From Betaproteobacteria bacterium RIFCSPLOWO2_12_FULL_62_58 (lineage in GTDB: Bacteria; Pseudomonadota; Gammaproteobacteria; Burkholderiales; SG8-41), in NCBI GenBank assembly GCA_001772005.1, contig MERI01000027.1, positions 85,612 through 149,611 of the forward strand: a stretch of DNA of 64,000 nucleotides, given 5' to 3'. The translations under genes and the position numbers were made by a program. Positions 3,185 through 56,066 of the stretch are shown piece by piece (positions within the stretch are counted from its first letter, which is position 1; each line of letters starts with the position of its first letter). The notes below the pieces were generated by a model, which was given only the letters and a program-made list of their open reading frames with translations, was not told where the DNA came from and ran no database searches.

Positions 3185-4564
3185 ATGAGCCAAGGAACCA
3201 TTGTTCAGTGCATCGGCGCGGTGATCGACGTCGAATTCCCGCGCGACCAGATGCCGCATATCTACGACGCCCTCAAAATGGATGACATCGGGCTGACGCT
3301 CGAAGTGCAGCAGCAGCTTGGCGACGGCGTGGTGCGCACGATCGCGCTCGGCTCTTCCGACGGGCTGCGCCGCGGTATGACGGTGGTCAACACCGGCGCG
3401 CCGATCACGGTGCCGGTAGGTCCCAAGACGCTCGGCCGCATCATGGACGTGCTCGGTCGGCCGATCGACGAGCAAGGTCCGGTGGGCGCGGAAAAGAGCA
3501 TGTCGATCCACCGCGCGGCACCCAGTTTCGAGGAGCTTGCGCCATCGCAGGAGTTGCTCGAGACCGGCATCAAGGTGATCGACCTCGTCTGCCCGTTCGC
3601 CAAGGGCGGAAAAGTGGGTCTCTTCGGCGGCGCCGGCGTCGGCAAGACCGTGAACATGATGGAACTGATCAACAATATCGCCAAGAAACACAGCGGTCTG
3701 TCGGTGTTCGCCGGCGTGGGCGAGCGTACGCGCGAAGGCAACGACTTCTACCATGAGATGAAAGATGGCGGCGTTCTCGACAAAGTGGCGCTGGTCTACG
3801 GCCAGATGAACGAGCCGCCCGGCAACCGCCTGCGCGTGGGGCTGACCGGCCTGACGATGGCCGAGTATTTCCGCGACGAAGGCCGCGACGTGCTGCTGTT
3901 CATCGACAACATCTACCGCTTCACCCTGGCCGGCACCGAAGTCTCTGCGCTCTTGGGCCGCATGCCTTCCGCGGTGGGCTATCAGCCGACGCTCGCGGAA
4001 GAGATGGGCCGGCTGCAGGAGCGCATTACCTCGACCAAGACCGGCTCGATCACCTCGATCCAGGCGGTGTATGTGCCGGCCGACGACCTGACCGACCCGT
4101 CGCCCGCCACGACTTTCGGCCACCTTGACGCGACGGTGGTGCTGTCGCGCGACATCGCATCGCTCGGGATTTACCCGGCGGTCGATCCGCTCGACTCGAC
4201 TTCGCGCCAGGTGGACCCGCACGTGATCGGCGAGGAGCACTACAACACGACACGCACAGTGCAGGCGACGCTTCAGCGCTACAAGGAACTCAGAGACATC
4301 ATCGCCATTCTCGGCATGGACGAGCTCTCGCCCGAGGACAAGCTGGCGGTGGCACGGGCGCGCAAGATCCAGCGCTTCCTGTCGCAGCCTTTTGACGTTG
4401 CCAAGAACTTCACCGGCCAGGAGGGCAAGTACGTGCCGCTCAAGGAAACGATCAAGGGCTTCAAGATGATCGTGAGCGGCGAATGCGACAACCTTCCCGA
4501 GCAGGCCTTCTACATGGTGGGCCCGATCGAAGAGGCATTCGAAAAAGCGAAGACACTTCAGTAA
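3185..4564 (+). CDS. atpD: ATP synthase F1 beta subunit
   Basis: 459 aa; [45 protein letters not shown]. Confidence 0.98.
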
Positions 4565-4615
4565 TGGGTGATGGGCAATGGGTAATGAGTAAACTACTCA
4601 TCACTCATCACTAGG
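4564..4615 (+). repeat. Heptad inverted-repeat array, site A (atpD-atpC gap)
   Basis: ATGGGTG ATGGGCA ATGGGTA ATGAGTA AAC TACTCAT CACTCAT CACTAGG. Confidence 0.85.
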
Positions 4616-4622
4616 GACTGAG

Positions 4623-5045
4623 ATGGCCAACACCATACACATCAACGTCGTCAGCGCGGAAGAATCGATCTTCTCGGGCGAGGCAGAGTTCGTCGTGCTT
4701 CCCGGCGAAGCCGGCGAGCTCGGCATTTATCCGCGCCACACGCCGCTCATCACCCGCATCAAACCGGGCGAGGTACGCATCAAGCTGCCGGGAGGGGCCG
4801 CCGAGGAGCTGATCTTCGTCGCGGGCGGCGTCCTCGAGGTGCAGCCGGGGCTGGTGACCGTGCTTGCCGATACGGCGATCCGCGGACATGATCTTGACGA
4901 AGCCAAGGCGGCGGAAGCGAAGAAGCGCGCCGAGGAGGCGATGCAGAACCAGACTTCCAAGCTTGAGATCGCCAAAGCCCAGGCCGAGCTGGCACAGGCT
5001 GTCGCGCAGCTCGCGGCGATCCAGAAGCTGCGCAAGAAGCGATAA
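4623..5045 (+). CDS. atpC: ATP synthase F1 epsilon subunit
   Basis: 140 aa; [35 protein letters not shown]. Confidence 0.95.
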
Positions 5046-5123
5046 AGCCGGACGCGCGGCGGCGCCGGTTGAGTCCATGGATTGGACCCGGCGCAGGGAC
5101 GCCGTTTAACTCGCGGCACGATC

Positions 5124-54090: not shown

Positions 54091-54326
54091 TGAACGAGAA
54101 CGAAATGGCGCGCATGGTGCGCAAGGCGATTGACGGCTATTTCAGGGATCTCGATGGCGAGAAGCCCAGCAGTGTTTACGACATGGTCATCAACTGCGTC
54201 GAAAAACCCCTGCTCGAGTCGGTGCTGCACCGCGTGAAGGGCAATCAGACCCATGCCGCGGAAATGCTCGGCATCAACCGCAACACCCTGCGCAAGAAAA
54301 TGAAGATGCACGGAATCAAATTCTAG
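54087..54326 (+). CDS. fis: Fis-family nucleoid-associated protein
   Basis: 79 aa; VKGNQTHAAEMLGINRNTLRKKMKMHGIKF; dusB-fis pairing. Confidence 0.94.
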   Translation: MMNENEMARMVRKAIDGYFRDLDGEKPSSVYDMVINCVEKPLLESVLHRVKGNQTHAAEMLGINRNTLRKKMKMHGIKF

Positions 54327-54411
54327 GATTCAGGATCAAGGATCAAGCATTGAGGATCGAGTCCATGTGCTTCGGTTATCTCTGAATCCTGAATCCTCAA
54401 TCCTGTATTCC
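54324..54411 (+). repeat. Heptad inverted-repeat array, site F (fis-purH gap)
   Basis: TAGGATT CAGGATC AAGGATC AAGCATT GAGGATC, then a loop, then TATCTCT GAATCCT GAATCCT CAATCCT GTATTCC; fis stop TAG is in the first heptad. Confidence 0.85.
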
Positions 54412-54412
54412 A

Positions 54413-55975
54413 ATGGCTGTCATCAAGCAAGCGCTGATCAGCGTTTCTGACAAGATCGGCATCATCGAATTCGCGCGCGGACTCGCGGGGTTCGGCGTGG
54501 CGCTGATTTCCACCGGCGGCACGGCGAAGTTGCTAAAGGATGCCGGGCTCAAGGTTGCCGAAGTTGCCGACTATACCGGTTTTCCCGAAATGCTGGACGG
54601 CCGCGTCAAGACGCTGCATCCGAAGGTCCATGCCGGCATCCTGGCGCGGCGCGACGTTGCCGGGCACCTGAGTGCACTCAAGAACGCGGGCATCCCGACG
54701 ATCGATCTGGTGGTGGTGAACCTCTATCCGTTCAGCGAGACCGTCGCCAAACCGGACTGCGCGCTCGAGGACGCGATCGAGGGCATCGATATCGGCGGTC
54801 CGGCAATGGTGAGAAGTGCCGCCAAGAACTATCAGCACGTTGCAGTCGTCACCGATCCCGCGGACTACGCCCCGCTGCTCAGGGAAATGGCATCGGCCAA
54901 CGGCGCGGTGGGGGCGGAGATGCGTTTCCGGCTCGCGCAAAAAGCGTTTTCGCACACCGCAGCTTACGACGGCGCGATCAGCAGCTATCTCACGGCGCTT
55001 GATCCGGGCGGCAAGCGCGGTGAATTCCCGGCACGGCTGAATCTCCAATTCGATCTCGTGCAGGCGCTGCGCTACGGCGAGAACCCGCACCAGGACGCCG
55101 CCTTCTACCGGGATCTCAAGCCTGCGCCGGGCAGCCTTGGCGACTACGTGCAGCTGCAGGGAAAGGAACTGTCTTACAACAACATCGGCGACGCCGATGC
55201 GGCATGGGAATGCGTGAAAACGTTCGACGCACCCGCGTGCGTCATCGTCAAGCACGCCAACCCGTGCGGTGTCGCGATCGGCTCCGGTCCGGTCGAGGCC
55301 TATAAGAGGGCGTTTGCCACCGATCCGACATCAGCCTTCGGCGGCATTATTGCTTTCAACTGCGAGCTCGACGCGCAAACGGCGGAAGCGGTTACGCAGC
55401 AGTTTGTCGAAGTAGTGATCGCCCCGAAGATCGCCGCCGGCGCGGCCGCGGCACTCGCGCAAAAGACGAACATCCGGGTACTCGCCGTGCCGCTTGCAGC
55501 GGGCGCCAACGCCTTCGACCTGAAGCGCATCGGCGGGGGACTGCTGGTGCAGACCCCGGACAACATGAACGTCGCTGCCGGGCAGCTGACGACGGCGACC
55601 AGGCTCAAACCAACCGAGCAACAGCTTGCCGACCTGCTGTTTGCCTGGCGGGTGGCGAAGTTCGTCAAGTCCAACGCCATCGTGTTCTGCGGCAACGGCC
55701 GGACGCTGGGCGTAGGCGCCGGCCAGATGAGCCGCGTCGACTCGGCGCGCATCGCGTCGATCAAGGCGGCCAATGTGGGGCTTGCGCTCGCCGGGTCGGT
55801 GGTCGCCTCTGACGCGTTTTTTCCGTTTCGCGACGGCATTGATGTCGTGGCGCAGGCGGGCGCCAAGGCGATCATCCAGCCGGGCGGCAGTCTGCGCGAC
55901 GCGGAAGTCATCGCCGCCGCCGACGAGCACGGCATCGCGATGGTGTTTACCGGTTTCCGCCATTTCCGTCATTAA
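54413..55975 (+). CDS. purH: Bifunctional AICAR transformylase / IMP cyclohydrolase
   Basis: [46 protein letters not shown]. Confidence 0.98.
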
Positions 55976-56066
55976 AGTGAGGAGCGAGGCGTGAGGAGTG
56001 AGGCGTTAGAGCCAGGCCTGCGCGGTGTGCTTTTGCGCCTCTCGCCTCTCGCCTTTCGCCTCTCGC
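55975..56066 (+). repeat. Heptad inverted-repeat array, site G (purH-purD gap)
   Basis: AAGTGAG GAGCGAG GCGTGAG GAGTGAG GCGTTAG, then a loop, then CTCTCGC CTCTCGC CTTTCGC CTCTCGC. Confidence 0.88.

Follow-up and report, generated by a model that had tools for sequence, protein, structure and literature searches.

Bacterial tandem arrays of seven-nucleotide units (heptads) have been on record since 2007. The explanations offered (quadruplexes, regulators, slippage) were mostly drawn from cases with one or a few unit sequences. Here we describe such arrays in Betaproteobacteria bacterium RIFCSPLOWO2_12_FULL_62_58, both at gene junctions of a 64,000-nt stretch of contig MERI01000027.1 (positions 85,612 to 149,611, forward strand, assembly GCA_001772005.1; hereafter the window) and in the rest of its genome. 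The units are purine-rich, and pairs of arrays sit head-to-head in the gaps between genes (array, loop, reverse-complement array). These arrays are a multi-family version of an already known, unexplained class of micro-repeats. A preliminary description of the window, made from the sequence alone, knew of no named system that matches, but two published systems are close relatives.

The first of these has the same geometry. Rehm et al. (2015; PMC4692102) described heptameric repeats with the units GGGNATC and GGGGA(C/T)T in Xanthomonas and Nostoc, for which no function was found. The repeats are intergenic, mostly between aligned open reading frames (ORFs) and rarely between divergent ones, and their G-rich strand is coding after stops and non-coding before starts, whatever the orientation of the ORF. 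There are 70-75 inverted pairs per genome, most often with four units per array, and array length varies between relatives. The arrays studied here share the inward course of the purine strand irrespective of ORF orientation, the inverted pairs within one gap, the four-unit mode and the scarcity at divergent genes. Unlike the repeats of Rehm et al., which belong to one heptad family per genome, they comprise many families, mostly without GGG tracts, and some octads in a betaproteobacterial host, and their main families are other than GGGNATC/GGGGA(C/T)T with its G-quadruplex-forming tracts.

The second system consists of paired tandem octa- and heptanucleotide arrays in Geobacter metallireducens (Aklujkar et al., 2009; PMC2700814). 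These are classes 1-3 of "global regulator binding sites", with units of 8 nt (GTTGCTYN), 8-9 nt (TCTCCGTS[Y]) and 7 nt (MTYCTGA), arranged as opposite-strand pairs with variable spacing and proposed to bind IHF or HU. Several unit classes in one genome, opposite-strand pairing and variable spacing are all found in our arrays, although the unit sequences differ from those given there. TAACTGA direct repeats of Beggiatoaceae, cyanobacteria and Bacteroidetes (MacGregor, 2015; PMC4679880) are likewise intergenic heptad arrays with a patchy phylogeny, often directly before start codons; unlike the host arrays, they consist of one fixed heptad and form hardly any inverted pairs. More generally, heptads are cited as the commonest long-unit class in most genomes, with polymerase slippage suggested as the cause (Mrazek et al., 2007, as cited in PMC4679880 and PMC4692102). 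The heptad tandems described here exceed chance length, as do such heptanucleotide long simple sequence repeats, but the latter, as summarized in those two papers, are a statistical class that lacks the head-to-head geometry.

Distribution, geometry and unit families

The betaproteobacterial host genome comprises 5.88 Mb in 277 contigs, and PurH places it closest, among named organisms, to uncultured beta proteobacteria and Burkholderiales (identity at most 80%). We sampled 1.08 Mb of it, including the window; 0.72 Mb of the sample was picked by heptad match. Rates per gap rest on this sample, whereas pattern counts over the whole genome are free of its bias. Arrays were detected by direct reading, with Tandem Repeats Finder (TRF) and by a scan for matches at a lag of 7 nt (segment score at least 7), a threshold that under-detects short arms. 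Genes in the sample were called with a simple codon-usage caller, which got the strand wrong around pdxA, so that a few gaps are mis-assigned.

Autocorrelation of the sampled gaps is dominated by lags 7, 14 and 21, with lags 8 and 16 weaker. The lag-7 scan identified 95 arrays in 475 co-directional gaps (partly chosen by hits) and 0 in shuffled gaps. Across the whole genome a heptad pattern gave 197 matches, compared with 4 for the reversed control pattern, and a pattern of three TGARNGN units with one mismatch gave 447, compared with 3 for its control. Chance periodicity is thus ruled out and the 7-nt signal extends genome-wide. The period is less fixed than had been described: heptads dominate, but an 8-nt GTGAACGR family is also present and obeys the same orientation rule. 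Density is uneven: contigs C1-C16 have arrays in 5/73 of their co-directional gaps, the contig of the window in 12/66, and contigs selected for having a match in 102/307.

All 51 two-armed co-directional gaps are purine-first. Purine arms adjoin stop codons (median about -2 nt), and pyrimidine arms stop about 11 nt short of start codons. The purine-first class of heptad inverted repeats abutting stop codons, proposed from the window, does exist throughout the genome. The rule can be stated for gap edges: the purine-rich strand runs from the edge inward, at stop edges and start edges alike. Purine arms in co-directional gaps lie left or right in the ratio 88/10 and pyrimidine arms in the ratio 14/60, and the purine strand reads inward in 14 of 14 convergent gaps. 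Because the reverse complement of array, loop and anti-array is again purine-first, this order cannot be a polarity relative to genes. The sense-strand polarity of the preliminary description is therefore an artefact of strand symmetry, and a gene-directed version of it is contradicted by the convergent gaps, which follow the same inward rule. Convergent gaps carry arrays about as often as co-directional ones (15/64 versus 119/446, p=0.65), and divergent gaps are poorer in them (6/68, p=8e-4). Loops between arms measure from 1 to more than 100 nt. The stop codon is repeated at +7 in 10/70 arrays, compared with 6/253 control gaps (p=3e-4), so a role of the stop codon as universal heptad seed holds only in part.

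The 182 arms fall into the recurrent families AGGATTG, AGAGGCG, AGCGGTG, AACGATG, AGTGATG, AAACGTG and AGGCGTG, plus smaller ones. Heptads are specific to loci, as first described, with at least seven recurrent families and octads in one genome. The modal number of units per arm is four (72/182 arms). Arm ends favour certain heptad phases, alike in both arms (AGGATTG, AGAGGCG and AGTGATG families), and neighbouring units are slightly more similar to each other than shuffled units (p=0.016). Loops are unrelated between sites, except for one dispersed CCCTCTCCCC element, which argues against dispersal as whole elements.

Similarity between arms and turnover of arrays

The two arms of a site are alike at the level of the family, and this part of the earlier description stands: both come from one family at 28/40 sites (6.1 expected), and same-site arms match better than random arms (15.4 versus 8.0, p<2e-4). 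Below the family level there is no coevolution between arms. The match stays as good when the units of one arm are shuffled (p=0.66), and two arms of one site resemble each other no more than they resemble arms of the same family at other sites (p=0.38, 1.0, 0.75 and 1.0). Selection for pairing in the sense RNA would make G.U mismatches outnumber A.C mismatches; we counted 66 G.U and 87 A.C at 74 paired sites, octads included (51 and 64 in an earlier count), so base-pair selection was not seen by this test, for which the terminator control (G.U 3 versus A.C 4) is too small to show power. Unmatched unit order, unmatched variants and the absence of a G.U excess together argue against selection on RNA structure and against the hairpin-templated copying that had been suggested to keep the arms similar.

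Turnover is visible at every level. Over 5.7 kb shared with a 99.6%-identical strain, the sole intergenic indel is 14 bp, i.e., two units that this strain has in addition, in the atpD-atpC pyrimidine arm, a slippage-type change seen in this single case. Across the bacterial family, orthologous junctions have different heptads or no array. The atpD-atpC hairpin is built from GTAATGG in the host, GTGAAAC in genome G011, GTGAGGA in G017, GTGAACG in G006 and an octad in G010; other relatives have almost no gap at junctions that carry arrays elsewhere. Median lengths of orthologous gaps are 74, 105 and 89 nt with an array and 12, 18 and 69 nt without. At purH-purD the gap is 109 nt in G027, with both arms, and 9, 8 and -1 nt in G032, G009 and G015, which would most simply reflect gain of the whole array-loop-array, the one whole-unit gain that we infer. 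Neither of its arms is a copy of the other. A search for empty and filled sites between G027 and G032 yielded one informative junction of 60. With related species carrying different heptads at orthologous junctions, gain, turnover and function of the arrays are directly testable.

The number of matches ranges from 1 to 476 per genome within the bacterial family, through the whole of which the class runs. Beyond the family it is patchy: exact matches occur in 45/369 genomes of the bacterial class and are numerous in only a handful. Contig C214 (L219) of G001, another genome of the genus, is 99% identical to window positions 1-5694, and G001 also has a second, divergent atpD; the contig could possibly be bin contamination or a second strain.

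Possible origins of the arrays

We give an even chance to the explanation that these dispersed purine-rich short-unit arrays arise by a DNA-level repeat process with unit slippage and are not a selected RNA switch. The "selfish micro-repeat family" of the preliminary description, one of several options offered there, is the one that the data favour. Pairs of arrays, with units mostly of 7 nt and sometimes of 8, lie head-to-head in gene junctions around an unrelated loop, and in this reading one heptad family supplies both arms of a site. The first purine arm often has its anchor in a few bases that also belong to the upstream stop codon (as in TAG-GATT, TGA-GGAT and GTAA-TGG). After its birth each arm alone would gain, lose and homogenise whole units by DNA slippage. 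Hairpin complementarity would then be a by-product of the origin of the pair, with no base-by-base upkeep for a role in RNA. The arrays would persist where they are tolerated, in stop-start or stop-stop gaps; divergent genes, with their promoters in the gap, have fewer of them. Distribution, geometry, families, arm statistics and the unit-wise indel are observed facts; the process behind them would be slippage combined with microhomology-primed copying from existing arrays, with no general selected function.

Several points weigh against this explanation. Slippage alone leaves the strict purine-first rule (51/51) unexplained. We identified no enzyme or template. The presence of reverse transcriptase (PF00078) and of transposases of the type associated with repetitive extragenic palindromes (RAYT; PF01797) does not track array abundance: PF01797 is absent in array-rich G014 and has eight matches in array-poor G032. 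We therefore rejected both RAYT with repetitive extragenic palindromes (REP) and reverse transcriptase as the generator. Some sites look long conserved (the atpD purine arm is shared with G003, and AGGATTN arrays occur at fis-purH in several genera), which could mean selection. Finally, the wobble test that tells against RNA pairing lacks a well-powered positive control. Separately, fragments of reverse transcriptase were found on G000 contigs C209, C116, C114, C51, C31, C131 and C105, several of them at contig starts, suggesting an unassembled multicopy reverse-transcriptase element in that genome.

A selected intercistronic RNA hairpin is the strongest competitor, although we consider it rather unlikely. 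The base of its stem would join stop and start so that ribosomes re-initiate without a Shine-Dalgarno sequence, or the hairpin would stabilise or process the mRNA. The arms do reach the stop on one side and come close to the start on the other, and the predicted stems are strong; in the predicted fold of purH-purD, stop and start come to lie a few bases apart. A Shine-Dalgarno 4-mer precedes 10/53 genes behind a pyrimidine arm, compared with 199/393 other genes, which is partly an effect of composition, and hairpins are kept at orthologous junctions while their heptads differ between species. However, G.U pairs are not above A.C, the arms are unmatched at the level of units and variants, many gaps are single-armed and arrays are missing from many orthologous junctions. 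Convergent gaps, which do not permit coupling, are as rich in arrays as co-directional ones. Given the outcome of the wobble test and the arrays in convergent gaps, we disfavour the hairpin as a general cause, and with it the translational coupling or RNA processing first put forward as the reason for the arrays; at individual junctions a selected hairpin is possible.

Folding of the purine strand into a four-tract G-quadruplex, as suggested for Xanthomonas and Nostoc, or binding of HU/IHF-like proteins, as Aklujkar et al. (PMC2700814) propose in their account of the Geobacter arrays, is improbable here. The four-unit mode, as in Rehm et al., and the purine-rich strand fit such a role. Yet four GGG tracts are present in only 7/182 arms, which excludes the quadruplex as common denominator, and the 88 arms without even four GG tracts still have four units as their mode. 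Heptad sequence also changes freely from site to site and from species to species, as a protein site would not. Since many unrelated heptads in one genome share period, inward purine polarity, head-to-head pairing and the four-unit mode, these features are independent of heptad sequence, which speaks against the quadruplex as a cause common to all arrays and in favour of a process.

Such a process might, at a similarly small probability, be a dedicated one that acts on DNA ends: each broken or paused 3' end at a gene junction would be extended in a telomere-like, templated manner by purine heptads drawn from a single family, and the two ends would be joined, leaving a random loop. This would account for the purine-first geometry on both strands, the shared family but unmatched units of the two arms, the unrelated loops, the whole-unit gains and the similar boundary phases. 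It would, however, require many templates for the many families, there is no candidate enzyme or template, reverse transcriptase and RAYT do not track abundance, and we know of no bacterial precedent, which we count against it. If true, bacteria would possess a new kind of sequence-writing or micro-element activity, one that sets period and polarity and leaves the sequence free.

Arrays and other elements of the window

The genes flanking the seven junctions originally named (atpD-atpC, glmU-glmS, gltD-hemE, thiD-thiE, surA-pdxA, fis-purH and purH-purD) were confirmed with NCBIfam. At least one arm is a 7-nt array at six of them, surA-pdxA being the exception. The atpD-atpC purine arm (4561-4592, plus strand; GTAATGG/GTGATGG units) starts inside the atpD stop codon and is followed by a pyrimidine arm of ACTCATC units (4596-4612, plus strand); TRF and the lag-7 scan found both, and the strain comparison also covers the latter. 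The fis-purH purine arm (54325-54361, plus strand; AGGATTC/AGGATCA) starts inside the TAG stop of fis, and its partner (54382-54404, plus strand) is the reverse complement of AGGATTC/AGGATTG. At purH-purD, GTGAGGA/GCGAGGC units (55976-56009, plus strand) face CGCCTCT units (56036-56066, plus strand) that end 4 nt upstream of the purD start. The four arms of these last two junctions were detected by TRF and the lag-7 scan, as was the single purine arm at thiD-thiE (41326-41358, minus strand; GTGAGGA/GTGAGGC), which extends from the thiD stop over the short gap.

At two junctions TRF and the lag-7 scan detected the pyrimidine arm, and the purine arm was read directly and pairs in the predicted fold. 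The glmU-glmS purine arm (8030-8056, plus strand) is degenerate (GAGGAGT/GAGAGGA), overlaps the end of glmU and falls below the lag-7 threshold; its pyrimidine arm has CCTCTCT units (8090-8116, plus strand). The gltD-hemE purine arm (about 18434-18465, minus strand) belongs to the AGGATTG family and is broken by one non-matching stretch, and its pyrimidine arm (18380-18408, minus strand) is the reverse complement of AGGATTG/AGGACTG units. The surA-pdxA gap (44796-44864, minus strand) is not counted as an array because the inverted repeat there (TTGAGTG...CACTCAG) is weak and imperfect and no lag-7 segment scores at least 7.

Pyrimidine arms in the window are followed by the next start codon within a few bases and by no long T run, unlike an intrinsic terminator. 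An Rfam scan of the window gave no known RNA family above the gathering score at the arrays; its sole match is an anti-hemB small RNA (RF02837, 79 bits, 37079-37168, plus strand). The gap between atpG and atpD (3067-3184) contains a sequence, CGATCGGGCGACACTC...GGAGACCAGATCGCCC, that is common to G022 and absent from most relatives. Downstream of atpC (5046-5123) there is a REP-like palindromic element, GAGTTSGARCGGACGCN..NCGCCGCTCAACTC, which recurs at that gap in G001, G007 and G035.

Two further kinds of repeat were identified elsewhere in the host genome. A pyrimidine-first dispersed element, CCCTCTCCCCC...GGGGGAGAGGGTTGGGGTGAGGG, lies at L135 17599-17642 inside the loop of a purine-first array pair, and also at about ten other places (L115, L127, L124, L085, L112, L132, L121, L137, L107). 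It resembles the CCYTC class 4 of Geobacter, which is reported from many genomes. Purine arrays with 9-nt units (CACAGAGAR, CGCAAAGGA) occur at L125 10442-10822 and L110 17959-18128, one of them with an opposite-strand partner, and similar 9-nt arrays are found at atpG-atpD in G003 and G006.

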